Positions 4,953-26,182 of a stretch of DNA of 40,892 nucleotides are shown here, in pieces (position 1 is the stretch's first letter; each line of letters starts with the position of its first letter). The translations under genes were made by a program, and so were the position numbers. Below the pieces are notes generated by a model that ran no database searches, had not been told where the DNA came from, and saw only the letters and a list, made by a program, of their open reading frames with translations. Source of the stretch: Phycisphaeraceae bacterium (GTDB taxonomy: Bacteria > Planctomycetota > Phycisphaerae > Phycisphaerales > Phycisphaeraceae); contig JADZET010000281.1 in NCBI GenBank assembly GCA_020850375.1, forward strand, positions 1-40,892, written 5' to 3'.

Positions 4953-6518
4953 CTATTCATACCGGCTAAGGTCGTCGCCCTTCACACCGCTGAAACGCAG
5001 CTCCTGATTCCCGCTGCGGATCAGCCATGCCATGTAAATCGCCTCGCCATTGCGGGAGGTCTTGATGGCATCGACCACGACAGGGTCGCCGCGTTCAAAG
5101 TCCATGGTCCGGCTCTGGCTTGGGCTCGGGTCGATCTCGACGGTGCGCTCTTGGCCGTCCTGGGACCGGATGGTCAGCAGGGAGACCTGGCCTTGACGGT
5201 CCTGATCGTCGGCGGTCTGGGCGGCGCCGGCGTTCTTCTCGAACCGGACAACCTGACCGCTCAGATGGACGTGCTCGTCCTTCATGGCCACCGGTTGCTG
5301 GAGGCCGCGGCTGGCGTCGGCCTGACGCCGGCCGCCCTCCGCACGCACGCCACGGGCCTGGAAATCTTCCTCGCCGACGCCGAATCCCTTGTAGATCTCC
5401 TTGCGGAAGGACTTGTCGGACAACCGGTCCAGATCCTCCGGCACGGTCGCGGCTGTCGAGAGCGCGTCGCTCGGACCGCTCAGGTGGATCTTCTGATCAG
5501 CCCCCAGGCTCACGGCCGCATATGGCACAAGACGGTTGGCGTCATCCTTCGTCACCGAGTCCGCGGGGTCCACGATGAGGAAGGCTGTCTTGCCCGAGTC
5601 GAGCTCGACGACCAGGTCCTCGACCTCACCGATGTCCTGATCGCCGGTCCGGGCCCGGAGGTCGGAATCATCAATCTGACTGAGCAGGCAGAGGTGGGTG
5701 CTGACCTTCTCGGGAGCATCGGCGGTGTTGACGTGCTCGGGGGAGCCCTGCGAGGCTTGATCGCCCGACTTGGCGGGCGCCGTCATGTCCTGACGCGGTT
5801 CGGCCGCGGCCTGGCTCTGGCGCGCGGCCTGGGCGGCCTCACTGGCGCGGCCCTCGCGGCGTTCGCCGACGGGGGTGGTGTCGCGTGGGCCACTGCTCTC
5901 CAAGCTACCCAGACGCCATGACGGAGCGTCGTCGGCCAGGTCATCCGACGTCCAGTCCGCGGAGATCTGCTGGTAGTACTGGTTCATCTGCTGACGCCAG
6001 GTCGTGTACTGCAGCTCGGAGAATTTCTGGGCGTCAAAGTCCGGCGCCTGTTCGATCTGCTGCGAGGTCATGTTGAGCCGGAGGCGGGGATTGCCGTTCT
6101 CATCGGGGCCGAGTGTCTCAAAGGCCCGGAAGGGCACGGCGGTCTGTTTGGCGCCGACACCCAGCACGCCGCCGCTGCGCAGCACCAGGTACCGGATGTC
6201 GCCCGAGTGGCGACGGATGATCACGTCCGAGATAACGCCAAGATCCTCGTTGCTCTTGGCCGATTGCACGTGGACGTCATCGATGTCGCTGTAGCAAACG
6301 AACGCGAGGGGTTGTTCGGCCCACGGGTTCATGCCCTGCGTTTGATCCCTTGGGGTCATGTCCCCGGGGCTCGTGGCGTGCTGAGCTTCCATGCCGCCCG
6401 ACGCGGCGTTGGGGGTCTCGGCCGCGGTTCGGTCCGCCGGCTCGGCCAGAGCGACGCCACTGACAAACAACGCCGCGATGCCTAACCGGCCCATCAGACG
6501 TTTTCGCATCGTGCTCAT
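4953..6518 (-). CDS. Secreted protein with two PRC-barrel domains
   Basis: A 521-residue protein with a signal peptide (hydrophobic core IAALFVSGVALA, likely cut after ALA at residue 25). PRC-barrel domains lie at about residues 72-137 (LGVISDVIIRRHSGDIRYLV) and 274-348 (IGEVEDLVVELDSGKTAFLI), separated by a Gln/Ala-rich linker. A beta-rich C-terminal part (about 415-505; VSLLTIRSQDGQERTVEIDP) may be an OB- or SH3-like fold. PRC barrels are protein- or RNA-binding modules; periplasmic versions often accompany osmotic or envelope-stress genes. AGGAG eight bases before the ATG supports the start. The exact role is unknown. Confidence 0.85.
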   Translation of the reverse strand: MSTMRKRLMGRLGIAALFVSGVALAEPADRTAAETPNAASGGMEAQHATSPGDMTPRDQTQGMNPWAEQPLAFVCYSDIDDVHVQSAKSNEDLGVISDVIIRRHSGDIRYLVLRSGGVLGVGAKQTAVPFRAFETLGPDENGNPRLRLNMTSQQIEQAPDFDAQKFSELQYTTWRQQMNQYYQQISADWTSDDLADDAPSWRLGSLESSGPRDTTPVGERREGRASEAAQAARQSQAAAEPRQDMTAPAKSGDQASQGSPEHVNTADAPEKVSTHLCLLSQIDDSDLRARTGDQDIGEVEDLVVELDSGKTAFLIVDPADSVTKDDANRLVPYAAVSLGADQKIHLSGPSDALSTAATVPEDLDRLSDKSFRKEIYKGFGVGEEDFQARGVRAEGGRRQADASRGLQQPVAMKDEHVHLSGQVVRFEKNAGAAQTADDQDRQGQVSLLTIRSQDGQERTVEIDPSPSQSRTMDFERGDPVVVDAIKTSRNGEAIYMAWLIRSGNQELRFSGVKGDDLSRYE

Positions 6519-6829
6519 GGTGGTACTCCTGATCGTGCAGGGCGGCTGGCTGGACGCCGAACCCTGGGCCGCCCACCTGCCGGTTCGGCTTGACTGTGTG
6601 ATCGTCCCATCGCCTAGATGAGCGGCCGCTGATGAATCGCTGAAAACAGCTTCATCTCATCGCGGGCACGCCGGCCCTGGCGTTTTTTCATTTCACCGGC
6701 AGTGATCTGGTGTGTTCACCGAGTGATGTGAGCGTGAAAACCCTGTCATGAAGATCCTGTTTCCCCCGATGCCGGAGCGTTCGCCGCCCGGAATAATCAT
6801 TAACAAAACGTCAAGCTGGGGGCGTCATC
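6519..6829. other. Divergent intergenic region with two hairpins
   Basis: This 311-base stretch separates the leftward PRC-barrel gene from the rightward response regulator. It contains an interrupted hairpin at 6631-6656 (GATGAA and TTCATC arms around GCTG-AAAA-CAGC), then a short hairpin ACGCC/GGCGT at 6668-6683 followed by T residues to 6688, which looks like a weak rightward terminator. No open frame with a start signal was found. Confidence 0.4.
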
Positions 6830-7543
6830 ATGAGAGTGCTGATTATTGAGGACAACCCGAAGATCGCCGCGGCCATCACCCACGGCCTGCGTGAGCAGGG
6901 CATGGCCGCCGATACCTGTGCCAAGGGCTTCGAGGGCGAGGAATTGGCCGCTTCGAACCCCTACGACGCGATCATCCTGGACCTGATGCTGCCCGATCGC
7001 GACGGCGTGGAGGTCTGCAAGAACCTGCGCCGGCGCAAGATCGCCACGCCGCTGCTGATGCTCACGGCCCTCGCGACCACGCAGGACAAGGTCAACGGGC
7101 TCGAGGCCGGGGCCGACGACTACATGAGCAAACCTTTTGAGTTCGACGAGCTTGTCGCCCGCCTGCGGACCATGGCCCGACGCGGGCAGGCGAGTGAGGG
7201 ACGCAATCTCAGGTTCCATGACCTCGAGCTCGACCTGGACCGACGCGTCGCGATCAGAGAGAACCGACGGATCAGGCTCTCGAACAAGGAGTTCAGCCTC
7301 CTCTACCACTTCCTGCAGCACCCCGAGCGTGTTCTGAGCCGGACCCAGATCATTGGGAAGGTGTGGGACATGAACTACGAGCCCGAGAGCAACGTCGTGG
7401 ACGTCTATGTCTCGGCCCTGCGCAAGAAGATCGACCGGGACTTCTCCGTGCCGCTGCTGCAGACGGTGATCGGCGGCGGATACCGTCTGGGCCTGCCGGA
7501 TGAAGTGGCGGCATCGAGTCAGGCGGACACGTCAACGGCATGA
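6830..7543 (+). CDS. OmpR/PhoB-family response regulator (orphan)
   Basis: A 237-residue two-component DNA-binding regulator. The receiver domain (about 1-115) has the acidic pair E7-D8, the phosphoacceptor D51 in ILDLMLPD, T79 and the conserved K101 in SKPFEFDELVARL. A winged-helix domain follows (about 125-225) with RIRLSNKEFSLLYHFLQHP, SRTQIIGKVWDM, NVVDVYVSALRKKID and the terminal GGGYRL hairpin, as in PhoB and CusR. No sensor kinase gene flanks it: a lyase gene lies 5 bases past the stop on the other strand, and the upstream neighbour is divergent. A G-rich GGGGGCG lies before the ATG. Its targets are unknown; the divergent PRC-barrel gene is a candidate. Confidence 0.93.
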   Translation: MRVLIIEDNPKIAAAITHGLREQGMAADTCAKGFEGEELAASNPYDAIILDLMLPDRDGVEVCKNLRRRKIATPLLMLTALATTQDKVNGLEAGADDYMSKPFEFDELVARLRTMARRGQASEGRNLRFHDLELDLDRRVAIRENRRIRLSNKEFSLLYHFLQHPERVLSRTQIIGKVWDMNYEPESNVVDVYVSALRKKIDRDFSVPLLQTVIGGGYRLGLPDEVAASSQADTSTA

Positions 7544-9462: not shown

Positions 9463-10638
9463 TCAGACTTGTCGAGCGGACCGGGCCGATCGGCGCAGGG
9501 GCAGGATCAACCACGCGGCCAGCCAGGCCAGGGACGTCGGCTCGGGGATAAGAGACAGCCCGTCGGTGACGAAGGCGTCGAAGATGAGGTTGGCCAAGTA
9601 ATCGGCCCCGGCCGGGGAGTGGTGGAGGTTGTCCCCGTAGAGGTAGCCATTGTCGAGGAAGAAGGCCTTGTTCCCGGCGGTGGTGCCGAGGTTGAGGAAT
9701 CCCAGGCCCAGGTCGGCCGCGGCCTGCTCCTGGACGCCCCAGATCATCGGCAGGCGTGAGCTGCCCGAGTCGTAGGTGCCCAGGATCAACACGTCGGAGT
9801 CGGGGCTGGCGGTGAGCATCCGCTGGATCAGGTAGGGGAAGGCCACCTCGTACTGGGACTGAGTGTAGTGGTCGTTCTGGCCGAGTGAGATGATGATCAG
9901 TTCGGGGCTGAGCATGGCCAGCTGGGCGTCGAAGGTCCGGTCGCGGAAGAGGTAGTTGGAGGTGCCGTAGCCGCTGTTGGCCGCCCGGTTGACACGGATG
10001 CCGGGGTCGCTGGTGGCGTTCTGAACGCCCAGCAGGGCCACCGTGCCGGGGCTGGTGACCTCGAAGTTCAGTTCATGGTCGTCGCCGGTGAAGGTGTGAG
10101 ACCAGGAAGAGGCGCTGATGGCCTTGCTGTCGGTGTGGGTGTCGATGTTGCCGAGCAGGTTGCCGGCCGAGTCGCGGATGGCGACCACGCCGCCGTTGTT
10201 GGCCGTGCCGTAGTGCACTTCGACCTGCTGATTCCAGGTGTCGATGGCGAGACTGCTGCCGACCACGTCAGGTCCGAGCCAGATGCCGTTGAGGGCCTTG
10301 CGGGGGGGGATATCCACGTTGGCGCCGCTGCCGATGAAGTGGCCGGTGACGTCGTGCACGCCGGTCAGCCCGCTGAACTCCTGGTAGCCCGCGCCCGCGT
10401 CGCCGTAGTAGTTGCGCATCAGCGTGTTGAAACGCGGCAGCCAGGCCGACCAGCCCAGGCCCTCGAAGCAGAGGCTGTCGCCGAAGACCATGATGTCGGC
10501 CTGCCCGCCCGAGGCGACGACCTGCTTGGTCTGCGCGAACGTCTGGGCCAGGTTGAGCTGGTCCGCCGCGTAGACCTGAACGTTGAGGATCGCCAGGGCG
10601 AGAGCGAAACAAAGGGCGAACCGCCGCGCATTGGTCAT
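9463..10638 (-). CDS. Secreted SGNH/GDSL hydrolase with PEP-CTERM sorting tail
   Basis: A 391-residue exported protein with a signal peptide ending near VYAA (residue 25). GDS at 53-55 is the SGNH block I nucleophile, SLGQND at 251-256 is block III, and DNLHH with D336 and H339 is block V, so the catalytic triad looks complete. An inserted beta-rich segment (about 120-220) may bind carbohydrate. The C-terminus has IPEP at 364-367, a hydrophobic helix and an Arg-rich end (LRRSARSAR), the PEP-CTERM signal processed by exosortase. The likely role is deacylation of an extracellular polysaccharide (inference). GGAG eight bases before the ATG supports the start. Confidence 0.88.
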   Translation of the reverse strand: MTNARRFALCFALALAILNVQVYAADQLNLAQTFAQTKQVVASGGQADIMVFGDSLCFEGLGWSAWLPRFNTLMRNYYGDAGAGYQEFSGLTGVHDVTGHFIGSGANVDIPPRKALNGIWLGPDVVGSSLAIDTWNQQVEVHYGTANNGGVVAIRDSAGNLLGNIDTHTDSKAISASSWSHTFTGDDHELNFEVTSPGTVALLGVQNATSDPGIRVNRAANSGYGTSNYLFRDRTFDAQLAMLSPELIIISLGQNDHYTQSQYEVAFPYLIQRMLTASPDSDVLILGTYDSGSSRLPMIWGVQEQAAADLGLGFLNLGTTAGNKAFFLDNGYLYGDNLHHSPAGADYLANLIFDAFVTDGLSLIPEPTSLAWLAAWLILPLRRSARSARQV

Positions 10639-11056: not shown

Positions 11057-11084
11057 TTGCCCCCGGCCGACGACCCTGTTACTT
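11057..11084 (+). promoter_or_regulatory. Promoter of the B12-riboswitch operon
   Basis: TTGCCC (11057-11062), a 16-base spacer and TTACTT (11079-11084) predict a transcript starting near 11091, only about four bases before the first riboswitch helix. The position fits well; the -10 box is imperfect. Confidence 0.45.
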
Positions 11085-11094
11085 TCCGACTTGT

Positions 11095-11399
11095 TCGACA
11101 GGTGCCTCGATCATCACGATCGAGGTGAAAAGGGAAGTGGGGTCACCCCCCCGCCCCCGGAAGTGGAATTCGGTGCCATGCACGCGAGTTCAACGACCGG
11201 GGCAAGGGGCAATCCCCCGCGGACGCGCCGCCGTGATGGGTGTTCCGCCTGGCTGACCGCCAGCGGACGACCGGCAGGCCAACGCCACTGTCCGACCGCT
11301 CTTCAAAGGAAGCGCCAGCTTCCAGCGGAAGGATGGGAAGGCATGACCTGCTCCGCCGAGGCCGACTCGGCACCCTAAGCCGGAAGACCTGCCTGTTGA
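11095..11399 (+). promoter_or_regulatory. Cobalamin (adenosylcobalamin/B12) riboswitch
   Basis: The core boxes of the cobalamin riboswitch occur in order: GGTGCC plus hairpin (11101-11124), AAAAGGGAA (11128-11136), a CCCCGGAAGTGGAATTCGG segment near 11156-11174 that aligns with the conserved CCCCGCAACTGT region, then after a long variable arm GCCACTG (11284-11290), GGGAAGG (11335-11341) and AAGCCGGAAGACCTGCC (11377-11393). The closing helix TCGACAGG (11095-11102) pairs with CCTGTTGA (11392-11399). It is about 305 nt, longer than usual because of the variable arm. It lies 199 bases upstream of the surface-protein gene and should lower its expression when cobalamin is plentiful. Confidence 0.93.
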
Positions 11400-11523
11400 C
11401 GCCGTTGTGTGTCCTCGCGCCAAGGACACAAGGCCCCCGGAAGTCACCCTCGGCCAGCTCTGGTTGTCCCGAGGCGTCGGCAGACGGGCAGCAGGTCGAT
11501 CTGGAACCCCAGGCCCACCTCGC

Positions 11524-11553
11524 CTTGTCCCCCTCGCGCCAGGACGGGTTTTT
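11524..11553 (+). terminator. Possible terminator of the riboswitch expression platform
   Basis: CTTGTCC (11524-11530) can pair with GGACGGG (11542-11548), with two G-U pairs, around an 11-base loop, followed directly by TTTTT. It sits between the riboswitch and the start codon, where a ligand-controlled terminator would be expected. The stem is not strong. Confidence 0.4.
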
Positions 11554-11598
11554 CCCACCCCGTTGTGCCCTGCGCGATTCAGGGCGAGGAGGTCCTCC

Positions 11599-12561
11599 GT
11601 GCGTTACGTTTTCTTCTTCGCGCTCGCGCTGGCGGTGCTCTGCACCCAGGCGAGCCAGGCCGGTCCCTACGCCCCGGCCGCGGGCGTCACCGGCTCAACC
11701 GCGATCTACAAGACCGACGTCGGCTTCACCGCCTGGGCCAGCGGCTACCAGGATTACCTTCCGGGGGCGGCGGTCGACGAGATCTGGAAGACGCCGGAGT
11801 TGGCGCTCGGCCCGGCGGCCGGCGACTCGTACGACATTGTCTGCCTCGGGGCGGGCGGGCGAATCACCTTGACGTTCGACAAGCCCATCGCCAACGGCGC
11901 GGGGGCGGACTTCGCCGTCTTCGAGAACGCCATCACCGACGGCTTCCTCGAACTGGCCTACGTCGAGGTCTCGGCCGACGGGACGAATTACTTTCGCTTC
12001 CCCTCGGCCTCACTGACGGTCGCCCCCGTCGCGGCGTACGGCACGCTGGACCCGACGAACATCGACGGCCTGGCGGGCAAGTACCGCCAGGGGTACGGCA
12101 CGCCCTTTGACCTGAGCGTGGTGGGGCTGTCCTCGGCCCGCTATGTCCGCATCCTGGACATCGTCGGCGACGGCTCGGCCCAGGACTCGTCGAACCGGCC
12201 CATCTATGACCCCTACCCCAATTACGGCTCGGCGGGCTTCGACCTCGAGGCCGTGGGCGTGATCCATCAACTGCTCGGACTTCCGGGGGATTTCAACGGG
12301 GACGGCGAGGTCAACGTGCAGGACATCAACCCCTTCGTCGTCGCGCTGACGGACGAGGCTGGCTTCTTCGCCACACACCCCGAGATCAGCCTCGCCGCGG
12401 TCGACCTCAACGCCGACGGCCACATCAACGTGCAGGACATCAACCCCTTCGTTGAGAAACTCACCGGCACGGGCATCGTGGGATCCAACCTCGTCATCCC
12501 CGAGCCAATCGGCGTGCTGCCGGTGATGTTGCTTGCGATGGCGTTCGTGCGCCGTCGCTGA
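11599..12561 (+). CDS. B12-regulated surface protein with dockerin-type repeats and PEP-CTERM tail
   Basis: A 320-residue exported protein starting at GTG 11599, preceded by GAGGAGG; the open frame extends upstream but without coding character. The signal peptide ends near QASQA (21). A beta-rich module (about 60-225; [45 protein letters not shown]) resembles cell-surface proteins that, to my knowledge, occur near B12 transport genes in Bacteroidetes. Two dockerin-like calcium loops follow, at 231-242 and 269-280, each with D-x-N-x-D-G. The C-terminus is PEP (301-303), a hydrophobic helix and RRR, for exosortase sorting. The riboswitch upstream suggests a role in capturing cobalamin or a cobamide (inference). 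Confidence 0.85.
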
Positions 12562-12606
12562 ATCGCCCGCCCCCCACTCACCCACTCTGATCCAGGAGAA
12601 AGATCC

Positions 12607-13413
12607 GTGAATTTCCGCACTCTTGTCGTTGCTGTTCTGGCCACCCTTCTGACCCTCCCCGCTGCCGCCTCAGGCGTGGCGGATTTCGAGGACCTGGCTC
12701 TCGCCCCCGAGTCGCACTGGAGCGGCGACTACCCGATCGACGGCGTCGGCGGGGAGGGCCAGATCACCACCTTCACCAGCGGCTGCGTCGCATTCACGAA
12801 CTACTCCGACGGCGACTGGTCCTACTGGCGGGGCTTCGCCTACTCCAACGTCACCGACAACACCACGCCCGGCTACGGCAATCAGTTCTCCGCGTTCCCG
12901 GGCTCGGGCGTCCACGGCAGCGCTAACTACGCCGTGGCCGACACGTCCTACGCCGCCGAGATCATCCTGCCGACTCCCACGATGGTGCTAGGCGGGTACT
13001 TCACCAACACCACCTATGCCGCGCTTTCCATGCTCAACGGCGATGCGTTCGCCAAGAAGTTCGGCGGGCCGACGGGCGAGGACCCCGACTTCCTCCTGCT
13101 GACCGTGACGGGCCGCGATGGTCAGGGCCAGATCACCGGCACGGTCGAGCTCTACCTGGCGGACTACACCCAGCCGGCCGGGCAGGACGTGCTGCTGTCG
13201 CAGTGGACGTGGGTCGACCTGATCGGGCTGGGCGAGTCGGTCAAGACGATCGCCTTCGCCATGACCTCAAGCGACGTCGGCCCGTGGGGCATCAACACGC
13301 CGACCTACTTCGCGCTCGACGACCTGACGCTGGCGCCGCTGCCCGAGCCGGCGACGCTGACGCCGCTGCTGGCCGCGGCGATCCTCGTCCGCCGTGCCCG
13401 CCCCCGGAAGTGA
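12607..13413 (+). CDS. DUF4465 surface protein with PEP-CTERM tail (BtuH-like candidate)
   Basis: A 268-residue exported protein with start GTG and AGGAG eight bases before it. The signal peptide ends near AAASG (23). The DUF4465 signature is clear: [21 protein letters not shown] at about 77-97, split here as [17 protein letters not shown] and GNQFSAF, then [24 protein letters not shown] and the closing FALDDL. As I recall, DUF4465 is the domain of the Bacteroidetes BtuH B12-binding surface proteins; this should be verified. The tail has LPEP at 245-248, a hydrophobic helix and RRARPRK (PEP-CTERM). It lies 45 bases after the first gene, so it should share the riboswitch-controlled mRNA. Confidence 0.87.
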
Positions 13414-13435
13414 CTGCGCAAGCCGTGAGCGAACC

Positions 13436-14287
13436 ATGTTCCCCAATCCCCGATCCCCAACCCCCCCCTCCCGCCCCGGCTTCACGCTCATCGAGCTGCT
13501 GGTGGTCGTCGTGATCATCGCCACGCTCGTGGGCCTGCTGCTGCCGGCGCTGGCGTCGGGGCGGGCGTCGTCGCGGGCGACCGTCTGCGGGTCGAACCTC
13601 AAACAGCTTGCCCAGGCGGCGATGGGCTACGCTCCGGAGCACGGCGGACGATTCCCTCCCGGGGCGTCGACGATCTTCGTCTACGGCTCGGGCAAGCGGC
13701 CCGTGCCGGACCTCGAGCGCTGGCACGGCCGACGGGCCAGGGAGAATGAGCCGTTCGATCCCTCGCGCGGCCCATTGGCTGAGTACCTCGGCGGCGACGG
13801 GATGGTCAAGCAATGCCCCTCCTTCCAGCCCGACAACCCCAACGGCTTCGAGGCGGGCTGCGGCGGGTACGGCTACAACAACGAGTACGTCGGCCGCGAG
13901 AGCGGGACGGTCATCGACGTTGGGGCGCGCGTCGATGTCTTCGCCCAACCCGTGGCCACCGTCTTCTTCGCCGACACCGCCTTCGCTCAACCCGCCCCCG
14001 GGGGCGGGGGCGGGGGCGGGGGGGGTGACGCGTACCTGATCGAGTATTCCTTCGTCGAGCCGGCCGTCTGGTCGTCGGGCTTCTCCGCGGGCCAGCCGAC
14101 CGATCCCTCGATGCACTTCCGCCACCGGGAATCCGCCAGCGTCGCCTGGCTCGACGGCCACATCGACCGCCAGACGATGAGCTACACCCGGGCCAACGTC
14201 TACGGCGTCAGCGAAGCACGGAACCGACAGATGCACATCGGTAACATCGGCGATCCCGACAACAATGCCCTGTTCGACCGGGAGTAG
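13436..14287 (+). CDS. Type II secretion/type IV pilin-like protein (DUF1559, H-X9-DG type)
   Basis: A 283-residue pseudopilin. [19 protein letters not shown] holds the prepilin peptidase site (cut between G15 and F16) with the conserved glutamate five residues into the mature protein. The globular part has [20 protein letters not shown], a run of nine glycines encoded by a G-rich tract, and [12 protein letters not shown], the H-X9-DG motif of the large planctomycete DUF1559 family. These proteins are secreted-structure subunits of unclear function. It starts 22 bases after the DUF4465 gene, with no good Shine-Dalgarno; an overlapping GTG at 13394 is an alternative. The position suggests cotranscription with the B12 unit. 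Confidence 0.86.
13441..13472. repeat. C-rich telomere-like tract inside the pseudopilin N-terminus
   Basis: Runs of 4, 4, 4 and 8 cytosines with AAT, GAT and AA spacers encode the Pro-rich leader just after the start codon. On the minus strand it reads as a G-rich tract much like the one at 16744-16777. Confidence 0.45.
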
Positions 14288-23549: not shown

Positions 23550-24452
23550 CTACGGTTCCTCCGGCCGCAGGAGATAACGGATCGTCAGCTCCACGCCGTG
23601 TTGCCCCAGTGCCTCGCCGCGTGCCTTCCAGGCGTAGAGGCTGGCGAGGACCGGGCCGTCCACGTCAGCATAGCCGGTGGACTTGAGCAGCGTCGCCTGG
23701 ACCACCGTGCCGTCGGGGCCGAAGACGACGCGGACCTGCGTGTTGTTGGGGACGGTCGTCAGGCGCGTGACAATCGTGAATTGCGGCCGGGCCACGGTGA
23801 TCTCGAGCCCCTGGGTCACGAGCACGCCGCCGGGCCGGGCCTCGAGGGTGTCGGCGTGGACCTTGACGGGGGCGACGTCCTGATTCGCCTTCGGGGCCGA
23901 CGTGGGCGTGCCGCGGGTCGCCTCCGGGGTAACCGAGGGCTTGAGCACGAGCGTCGGCACGGGGGGCATCGCGGGCGTTGGGGGCAGGATCGCTCCCTGC
24001 TCGATCGAAGGAAGATCAAGCATGTCGGACATCTCCACCGGCTCGGATGCTTGTTGCTTCGGTGGCGGCGACACGATGACCAGCGTCGGCAACGAGGGCG
24101 AGGGAGCGGGCTTCTCAGGGTCGTGCGCGATCGGCGCGTGCTCGACGGGCTCGACCTTGCTCTGCATTGCCGGCTGCTCGGTGGTGCTCTTGTCGGGAAC
24201 GGTGAGCTTGCGGTAGTCCTCGTAGGAGATCCAGGCGAGCGCCGTGCGACGCGGCGCCTCGGGCGAGCCGACCGCCACCTGACGCTGCTCGATCGGCGGG
24301 GGTCCGTCGATCTGGCGCTGCGACGAGGTGGCGGTGTCGCCGGCGTCCGCGTTCGTCAGGCCCACCAGGACCGGCATCCCCGCCAGGTGCAGGCCCGCCG
24401 CCAGCAGGGCGCTGACCCACAGGGCCGAGTGGGAATCGTGCTCAGCCATCAT
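23550..24452 (-). CDS. TonB-like energy transducer
   Basis: A 300-residue protein with one N-terminal membrane anchor (ALWVSALLAAGLHLAGMPVLVGL, about residues 10-32). A long Pro/Ala/Glu-rich periplasmic linker (about 45-215) follows, then a C-terminal TonB-fold domain with TQVRVVFGPDGTVVQATLLKS and GYADVDGPVLASLYAWKARG. TonB couples inner-membrane proton flow to outer-membrane receptors for cobalamin, iron complexes or glycans. The ATG lies six bases after exbD, and ATG 24449 is an equal alternative. It forms a pair with exbD but exbB is absent. Confidence 0.83.
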   Translation of the reverse strand: MMAEHDSHSALWVSALLAAGLHLAGMPVLVGLTNADAGDTATSSQRQIDGPPPIEQRQVAVGSPEAPRRTALAWISYEDYRKLTVPDKSTTEQPAMQSKVEPVEHAPIAHDPEKPAPSPSLPTLVIVSPPPKQQASEPVEMSDMLDLPSIEQGAILPPTPAMPPVPTLVLKPSVTPEATRGTPTSAPKANQDVAPVKVHADTLEARPGGVLVTQGLEITVARPQFTIVTRLTTVPNNTQVRVVFGPDGTVVQATLLKSTGYADVDGPVLASLYAWKARGEALGQHGVELTIRYLLRPEEP

Positions 24453-24458
24453 CGCCGG

Positions 24459-24878
24459 TCAATCCTCTTTGGGCGGGCCGACGAGGGAGACGTCCTCGAT
24501 GCCCGCACGCCTGATCCGTTCAATCAGGTCCACCAGGATGGGCCCACGGTCCGCCCCGCCCAGAGCCTCGAGCGTGATCACCACGCGCGGCTTGCCGGGG
24601 TCCGTGGACAGATCGTGCAGCTTCATGTCGAGATCGGCCGCGGGGATGAGCTGGCCGTCGAGGAAGACGACGCCGTAGCGGTCGATGGTGATCGTCGCCA
24701 CCCAGCCGGGCTCAGCCTGCTGGCCGGTCCCGATCGGCAGCAGCGTCATGGGCAGGACGTTTGTTCTGATCGCCAGGATGAACGAATAGATAAAGAACGT
24801 CAGCAACAGGAAGATCACGTCGATCAGGGGCACCATCTCGACGCGGGGCTCAAGGTTGTTCCTGCGAATCGCGCGCAT
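24459..24878 (-). CDS. exbD: ExbD/TolR-family biopolymer transport protein
   Basis: A 139-residue inner-membrane protein that works with ExbB to energise TonB. One membrane helix holds the proton-carrying aspartate D20 in VPLIDVIFLLLTFFIYSF, preceded by a basic N-terminus. The periplasmic domain (about 60-139) includes VVFLDGQLIP and VVITLEALGGADRGPILVDL. It starts directly at a putative -10 box and is the first gene of an exbD-tonB unit. Confidence 0.88.
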   Translation of the reverse strand: MRAIRRNNLEPRVEMVPLIDVIFLLLTFFIYSFILAIRTNVLPMTLLPIGTGQQAEPGWVATITIDRYGVVFLDGQLIPAADLDMKLHDLSTDPGKPRVVITLEALGGADRGPILVDLIERIRRAGIEDVSLVGPPKED

Positions 24879-24890: not shown

Positions 24891-25039
24891 CCGTCGGGGC
24901 GGTTACAGGGTGTCTTGCGCTCTGTAGAGGCAATCCCCGCGAGAGTAGATCGCAAAAGAGATAAACTACACGCATTCCTCCCGGGGCTCTCGCGGCGTCA
25001 TGCCGTCGTCGGCAACTCCCTCTACATAAAGTGCTTGCC

Positions 25040-26182
25040 ATGCCCACGCCAAACCTGACCAATGTGCAGAAGCAGCAACTCTGGGACGATTACTACGCCG
25101 GCAAGCCCACGCGCGTGCCGATGCGCCTCGACGCCAACCCGCGCATCATCCTGCTCGACCCCGAGCTCAACGTGGACGGCTACACCTTCGAGCAGGCGGC
25201 CAACGACCCCGAGACCCACGTCAAGGTGTGCCTGCAGTTCCAGCACTACCTGCGCACGCAGCTTCAACGCTGCACGGACATGCCCACGGGGCTGCCCGAC
25301 GCCTGGTCGGTGAACCTGAACGTCTACAACGTCTTCGAGGCGGCCTATTTCGGCGCGCCGGTGCGGTTCATTCCCGGTCAGGTGCCCTGCACCGAACCGA
25401 TCCTCACCGACGGCAACCGCGAGTCGATCTTCGATGTCGACATCGAGCACCCGCTGGAGAATCCCTTCATCAAGAAATGCCTGGCCTTCTGGCACGAGAT
25501 GCAGCGCATCTGCAAGGACCTGACCTTCGAGGGGCGTCCCGTGCGGCTGGACCGGTGGAACCTCTGCGGCACGGACGGGCCGCTGACCGTCGGGTGCAAC
25601 CTGCGCGGCACGGAATTTCTGGTCGATCTGCTGAACGACCCGGATTACGCCGACCGGCTGATGGCGTTCGTGACGCGGGCGGCCATCCTGCGTCGGCAGG
25701 CCTTCTGGGATTACTGGGGCGAGAGCTTCAGGCACGCCGGCTGGCAGGCCGACGACTCCTGCGAGATGCTCAGCCTAGAGACCTACCGCCAGCGCATCCT
25801 GCCGCTGCACAAACAATTTTTTGGAGCGATCGTGCCGGGCCAGGACCGCATGATGCACCTGTGCGGCGATGCGGGCCGGCTGTTCCCGACGATCTGCCGG
25901 GAATTGGGCGTCAGCAGCATCGACACGGGCTTCCCCCTGGACTTCGGCCAGCTGCGGCGCGAGGTCGGCCCGGACGTGCACGTCCTCGGCGGCATCGAGG
26001 TCAGCACGCTGCTGCACGGCACGACCGAGCAGGTCTACCAGCGAGGGCGGGAGATCCTCCAGAGCGGCGTGAAGGACGGGGGCAAGTTCATCTTCAAGGA
26101 AGCGAACAACTTCCCGCCGGGTGTGCCGCCGGCGAACGTCGAGGCGATGTACCAGGCCTGCCTGGATTTCGGGGGATATTGA
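25040..26182 (+). CDS. Uroporphyrinogen decarboxylase (URO-D) superfamily, methylcobamide methyltransferase-like
   Basis: A 380-residue TIM-barrel protein of the URO-D/MtaA/MtbA superfamily. HLCGD (H273, C275) corresponds to the H-x-C zinc motif of corrinoid-dependent methyltransferases, with GVSSIDTGFPLDFGQLRREV and VHVLGGIEVSTLL as the next strands. Where MtaA-type enzymes have a third zinc ligand cysteine near the C-terminus (a PGC segment), this protein has EANN (354-357) followed by FPPGVPPANVEAM, so the site differs. True HemE motifs are not evident. It may move methyl groups from a corrinoid or be a diverged decarboxylase (inference). No Shine-Dalgarno is seen. Confidence 0.8.
   Translation: MPTPNLTNVQKQQLWDDYYAGKPTRVPMRLDANPRIILLDPELNVDGYTFEQAANDPETHVKVCLQFQHYLRTQLQRCTDMPTGLPDAWSVNLNVYNVFEAAYFGAPVRFIPGQVPCTEPILTDGNRESIFDVDIEHPLENPFIKKCLAFWHEMQRICKDLTFEGRPVRLDRWNLCGTDGPLTVGCNLRGTEFLVDLLNDPDYADRLMAFVTRAAILRRQAFWDYWGESFRHAGWQADDSCEMLSLETYRQRILPLHKQFFGAIVPGQDRMMHLCGDAGRLFPTICRELGVSSIDTGFPLDFGQLRREVGPDVHVLGGIEVSTLLHGTTEQVYQRGREILQSGVKDGGKFIFKEANNFPPGVPPANVEAMYQACLDFGGY

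Follow-up and report, generated by a model that had tools for sequence, protein, structure and literature searches.

The window analysed here, a stretch of 40,892 nucleotides from a Phycisphaeraceae bacterium (Planctomycetota; assembly GCA_020850375.1, contig JADZET010000281.1), carries a cobalamin riboswitch followed by three genes, all on the same (+) strand as the aptamer. Gene 1 (11599-12561, GTG start, 320 amino acids) encodes a protein with a signal, a BtuH-like discoidin-type domain, a dockerin-type stretch and an I-P-E-P tail. Gene 2 (12607-13413, GTG start, 268 amino acids) follows after 45 bases and encodes a DUF4465 protein of the BtuJ family with an L-P-E-P tail, and gene 3 (13436-14287, ATG start, 283 amino acids), another 22 bases downstream, encodes a pseudopilin with a prepilin N-terminus, a long alpha-1 helix and an H-X9-DG-type head. 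The original prediction had described the interval 11057-14287 as a unit of two surface proteins; both are present, but the third open reading frame inside the same interval, a conserved pseudopilin, had been overlooked. We consider it likely that the unit is a riboswitch-repressed cobamide-acquisition operon that combines surface capture with a dedicated pseudopilin.

The RF00174 covariance model matches positions 11083-11410 (+) with 48.0 bits (gathering threshold 31.5, E-value 4e-9) and covers model positions 1-189, confirming the full-length cobalamin riboswitch that had been predicted; its start shifts from 11057 to 11083, 26 bases later. Between the aptamer end and the GTG of gene 1 lie 188 bases, in which a terminator scan listed no terminator. 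Minimum free energy (MFE) folding of this leader as a single sequence places a possible expression platform at 11513-11593 (+), where a helix formed by 11513-11527 and 11580-11593 masks some of the AGGAGG that serves gene 1 as ribosome-binding site (MFE z = -2.22). Such a helix would fit translational control of gene 1.

DUF4465 was correctly recognized in the second protein, which matches PF14717 with 175.1 bits (cut-off 25, E-value 2.3e-51). Its designation as the domain of BtuH was wrong and is rejected on the basis of the nearest solved chains and of the literature, in which DUF4465 proteins are named BtuJ (PMC12751083, PMC13398666). The nearest chains are 9qpm (E-value 3e-24), 9fct (8e-24) and 9hmu, a B12 complex (1e-21), and 9i2l is a distant match (2e-7); 9FCT is BtuJ1, 9I2L is BtuJ2 and 9HMU is D5EK51 (PMC13398666). 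Residues Y137 and Y234 of gene 2 align with Y146 and Y245 of BtuJ1, the conserved tyrosines with which loops DE and HI contact B12 (PMC13398666). Tight cobamide binding has been shown for BtuJ/DUF4465 relatives (PMC13398666, PMC12751083), and B12 is bound even by distant members of the family, including 'Pan' of Mucisphaera calidilacus (PMC13398666). Mucisphaera calidilacus belongs to the class Phycisphaerae. We take IPR013424 to be the PEP-CTERM signature and IPR026444 to be the Por sorting signature. Within the DUF4465 family they occur in 88 and 229, respectively, of 824 members (PMC12751083). Because of these counts and of the binding by 'Pan', a sorted B12-binding DUF4465 protein in Phycisphaerae is not new per se, and the proposal of a new kind of cobamide capture in this class does not stand.

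Gene 1 begins with a hydrophobic signal, recognized by eye, and has its closest named relative in P0002 of a Phycisphaeraceae bacterium (88% identity). Its main domain (11659-12270, +) is without a Pfam family match. Structure comparison gives it the discoidin/CBM32-like fold of the B12-binding domain of BtuH, with BtuH2 ranking above every CBM32 structure among the matches listed. An hhalign comparison of the domain with BtuH reaches an E-value of 1.9e-6, albeit over 54 columns only and with a probability of 89.7%, and a gene 1 profile run against the PDB gives BtuH E-values of 0.014 (domain-only alignment) and 0.0027 (full proteins); a phmmer search of the PDB with gene 1 alone missed BtuH, its matches being confined to the dockerin/EF-hand part. 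Among the ligand residues of BtuH2, N399 and F401 could be placed in the alignment, and Q333, H476, Y510, W511, W577 and L578 were not mappable. N110 of gene 1 is the likely counterpart of Asn399, a position that is invariant (38 of 38), and the F401 position holds F in 34 of 38 and I in the window protein. The domain can now be called BtuH-like, so that the protein formerly labelled a surface module is identified as the BtuH-like member of the pair. The dockerin repeats also ascribed to it reduce to one borderline dockerin type I-like stretch (amino acids 229-281, 12283-12441, +), for which PF00404 scores 22.9 bits in the 320-residue protein and 22.3 in the longer open reading frame, against a cut-off of 22.9. 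That stretch, the discoidin/CBM32-like fold and the lack of any further Pfam domain in gene 1 would also suit ordinary adhesion or polysaccharide-binding proteins, with a riboswitch that only couples biofilm formation to B12 status. We regard this as very improbable, given the rank of BtuH2 over the listed CBM32 structures, a DUF4465 partner from a family with demonstrated B12 binding, and the occurrence of the gene 1 domain downstream of cobalamin riboswitches even where DUF4465 is missing.

Both proteins had further been described as exosortase-sorted. By eye, the C-termini of genes 1 and 2 each show an I/L-P-E-P motif, a hydrophobic stretch and a tail rich in R and K, and PEP-CTERM-like tails are clear in many relatives; no PEP-CTERM profile reached its cut-off on the window proteins, the best being NF038120 on gene 2 with 21 bits against 80. 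An exosortase is present in all 22 Phycisphaerae genomes with DUF4465 (the genome sample is described below). The products of genes 1 and 2 are probably anchored at the surface by an exosortase. A PEP-CTERM-like tail is also seen upstream of the unit and separated from it by a tRNA gene, in an SGNH/GDSL-like hydrolase (9463-10638, -; subthreshold match).

Nothing in the unit is as unusual as the pseudopilin, which is conserved across the cobalamin-riboswitch units of Planctomycetota. The prepilin N-terminal signal of gene 3, whose database record P0121 is likewise 283 amino acids long, is recognized by PF07963 (27.8 bits, cut-off 21.2) and TIGR02532 (25.8 bits, cut-off 16.3). In the predicted structure, residues 17-68 form the long alpha-1 helix, with blocks of predicted local distance difference test (pLDDT) values mostly above 90. 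A Foldseek search with the pilin gave no match at an E-value of 0.001 or below; the VIA listing for the pilin contains type IV pilins exclusively, although the listing rules out no other family. The distinct high-scoring, riboswitch-linked copies described below have the consensus end G-W-F-G-P-x-D-N-S-L-F-D.

The linkage of these parts was followed in two samples. The first comprises 69 DUF4465 loci from Planctomycetota, Bacteroidota, Verrucomicrobiota, Deltaproteobacteria and others (17 planctomycete, 52 non-planctomycete). The gene 1 domain lies near DUF4465 or is fused to it at 42 of the 69, and RF00174 occurs within the fetched stretch at 28 of the 32 loci scanned with Rfam. Among the planctomycete loci 14 of 17 have the riboswitch; in the other three (L003, L012, L051) the stretch ends at most 755 bases upstream of the match. 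The second sample consists of 150 genomes from the class of G001, here called Phycisphaerae after locus L007 (L006 is titled Sedimentisphaerales and L019 Planctomycetales). DUF4465 was found in 22 of these genomes. In 20 of the 22, RF00174 precedes DUF4465 on the same strand by 406-1668 bases (the two are on separate contigs in G113 and G124), and the gene 1 profile matches 124-709 bases from DUF4465 in 19. Five more Phycisphaerae genomes have a strong gene 1 domain (best E-value at most 2.3e-26) without DUF4465, and in four of the five a cobalamin riboswitch precedes it on the same strand, 356-1494 bases upstream. RF00174 is also present in 17 of 20 Phycisphaerae genomes that have neither DUF4465 nor the gene 1 domain, the 20 being the first in a list of 93 genomes without a match and not randomly drawn. 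Its presence anywhere in a genome was therefore rejected as evidence, and only adjacency counts. Three of the 17 (G016, G024, G037) have weak gene 1-type matches within the fetched stretch (E-values 4e-5 to 5e-7), under the whole-genome threshold.

The pseudopilin is the most constant partner. It stands beside DUF4465 in all 22 sampled Phycisphaerae genomes with that domain, and in 14 of the 17 genomes without a DUF4465 or gene 1 match a pseudopilin follows the riboswitch; it occurs at none of the 52 non-planctomycete DUF4465 loci. Twelve of the 22 pilins are rows of pp17, the scoring model behind the count of 22, and ten were found without being rows (G040, G051, G058, G079, G089, G095, G113, G137, G142 and G159). 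Planctomycetota have H-X9-DG-type pseudopilins in such numbers (772 pseudopilin-like matches in 27 genomes, 8-91 in each, with lower bounds in four) that one might adjoin the riboswitch by chance or ancestry and have no role with B12. Such a bystander is very improbable: by chance about 0.018 pilins would be expected per riboswitch (within 5 kb downstream, same strand), whereas one was found in all 22 genomes and in 14 of the 17. Moreover, the top pilin reaches at least 294.7 bits in 16 of the 27 genomes, with a drop to 153.1 for the next match in any genome, and all 16 lie inside riboswitch units. Fifteen of these 16 high-scoring pilins were rows of the scoring profile, A7, which is circular, and only that of G037 was not; the result keeps its weight because no other paralogue among the 772 matches comes near. 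Against a link between pilin and riboswitch, no pilin was found next to the riboswitch of G034, of G036 or of G032, where the stretch is short, and none in the fetched stretch of G027, which has a strong gene 1 domain and no DUF4465. In the other 11 genomes the unit pilins belong to less distinct subfamilies, with 87.1-128.6 bits in nine; the genome-best pilin has an E-value of 5.8e-23 in G058 and 1.2e-19 in G026. The riboswitch, the family assignments and the conserved linkage of the three parts are established by computation.

The units vary in composition. A 2018-residue frame of Rhodopirellula maiorica (L018, 4116-10169) contains one gene 1 (BtuH-like) and three DUF4465 domains. Two riboswitch units without DUF4465 encode, respectively, an NHL/SGL propeller-like protein with a PEP-CTERM-like end beside a gene 1-type domain (L128, 1958-3214) and a 621-residue protein with a PEP-CTERM-like end and a gene 1-type domain inside (L129, 2564-4429), which are possible counterparts of BtuG and BtuG-H. 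In L132, from G020, RF00174 (6986-7178, -) directly precedes the pilin gene (6045-6878, -), with no surface-protein gene between them. Cobalamin riboswitches also occur in pairs, back to back in L134 (G016) and L157 (G113) and in tandem in L142 (G024).

The window encodes a KDO-transferase-like protein (E-value 2e-82, under the equivalog cut-off), and the cell therefore probably has a lipopolysaccharide outer membrane. Pfam or NCBIfam scans of 25 of the 38 predicted open reading frames in the window showed no BtuB-type TonB-dependent receptor. At 23550-24878 (-) lies an ExbD (PF02472) followed by a 300-residue frame without a Pfam match (23550-24452), TonB-like to the eye. A protein of the URO-D fold about 11 kb from the unit (25031-26182, +) has subthreshold similarity to methylcobalamin:coenzyme M methyltransferases (MtaA/CmuA) and is possibly a corrinoid-linked enzyme. 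Among the 22 Phycisphaerae genomes with the unit, 12 have a Plug domain and one of the other ten has a TonB barrel domain; neither was detected in nine, including the one-contig 5.06 Mb chromosome of G001, although most genomes are drafts and divergent receptors may be missed. FecCD permeases are found in all 22.

The pseudopilin could belong to a secretion filament that exports B12-binding surface proteins across the outer membrane, with B12 entering via a TonB-dependent receptor encoded elsewhere, and we give this somewhat less than an even chance. It would suit the frequent position of the pilin beside proteins with PEP-CTERM-like tails, the 13 genomes with a Plug or TonB barrel domain, and a second riboswitch in G023 whose contig also bears a Plug receptor and FecCD. 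It sits poorly with the nine genomes lacking both domains, with the same kinds of protein being encoded without a pilin at the non-planctomycete loci, and with the G020 pilin that directly follows its riboswitch. Those nine genomes would instead agree with a pseudopilin that builds or tips a retracting filament and, in place of BtuB, draws cobamide itself or a binder loaded with it across the outer membrane to reach BtuF. In G023 the binders are on one side of the pilin and btuF-, btuD- and btuC-like genes on the other, and the FecCD-type permeases in all 22 genomes and the constancy of the pilin point in the same direction. Import of this kind is nevertheless unlikely: divergent TonB receptors or porins may have escaped detection, FecCD and the BtuF family serve iron uptake too, a B12 site on the pilin is hypothetical, and pilus-driven uptake of a vitamin has no precedent known to us. 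It is likewise unlikely that Planctomycetota possess a pathway in which a dedicated pseudopilus, produced only under B12 scarcity, takes the place of BtuB, with BtuH- and BtuJ-type proteins at the surface catching cobamide and the filament taking it over the outer membrane and on to BtuFCD.

For the favoured reading, an acquisition operon with surface capture and a dedicated pseudopilin, the following account of cobamide binding, of regulation and anchoring and especially of what the pseudopilin does is inferred. When B12 is plentiful, the riboswitch would fold and turn expression off, probably because the ribosome-binding site before gene 1 becomes hidden, as the single fold suggests. When B12 is scarce, the BtuH-like and BtuJ-family products would be made, secreted and probably anchored by the exosortase, and would bind cobamides outside the cell. 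The pseudopilin would be made at the same time and may join a filament of the type II secretion or type IV pilus kind, which would display the binders or bring the ligand to the periplasm, where BtuFCD would take over the cobamide. Control by B12 and surface capture, as originally predicted, have good support from homology, synteny and the published biochemistry of relatives; the BtuH label for DUF4465 and the novelty for the class have to be given up, and the pseudopilin has to be added.

The riboswitch, BtuJ binding, including in Phycisphaerae, and sorting signals on DUF4465 were already known. No open-licence PMC article contains both 'cobalamin riboswitch' and 'Planctomycet', and neither the BtuH-like identity of the planctomycete gene 1 domain nor the constant presence of a pilin in cobalamin-riboswitch units was found in that literature, subscription journals and preprints lying outside the search. 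In the passages concerned, PMC10949472 deals with a cobalamin riboswitch and a pseudopilin separately, and in PMC12530212 cyclic di-GMP riboswitches, not cobalamin ones, precede PEP-CTERM genes. Text searches of PMC13398666 and PMC12751083 gave no mention of pilins, and Planctomycetes are not named there. Surface capture of B12 by BtuJ and BtuH has been described in gut Bacteroides, beside BtuB. Many Planctomycetota place both kinds of binder under a cobalamin riboswitch, probably with other anchors, and their most constant companion is a pilin. For one member of the planctomycete pseudopilin families, which are large and little studied, this offers a clue to function; it also raises the question of the route of B12 over the outer membrane in unit-bearing genomes without a detected TonB receptor; the riboswitch-linked pilin hints at an unstudied route of vitamin uptake.

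Compared with known systems, the gene 1 domain has the fold and the Asn of the N-x-F motif in common with the C-terminal domain of BtuH2 (7biz) and the H-domain of BtuG1 (8blw), with 21% identity in the structural alignment, but it is shorter (about 200 amino acids versus about 250-270), and gene 1 lacks PKD domains and has the borderline dockerin stretch and PEP-CTERM-like tail instead. Gene 2 shares its domain and both B12-contact tyrosines with 'Pan' and D5EK51 (9hmu), and with 'Pan' also the bacterial class. The pilin has the prepilin N-terminus, the H-X9-DG motif and the pilin-like model of DUF1559/H-X9-DG pseudopilins; unlike these at large, it is represented by one distinct high-scoring copy per genome (16 of 27) that is tied to a cobalamin riboswitch. 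The closest counterpart of the unit as a whole may be sought in cobamide operon 2 of Bacteroides thetaiotaomicron, btuJ2-btuH2-btuL-btuG2-btuB2-btuF-btuC-btuD (PMC12751083). The two share control by a cobalamin riboswitch, jointly encoded binders of the BtuJ and BtuH types and a surface location; the Bacteroides operon uses lipid anchors and BtuB/BtuG, whereas the window unit has probable PEP-CTERM anchors, no BtuB that could be seen, and a conserved pseudopilin.

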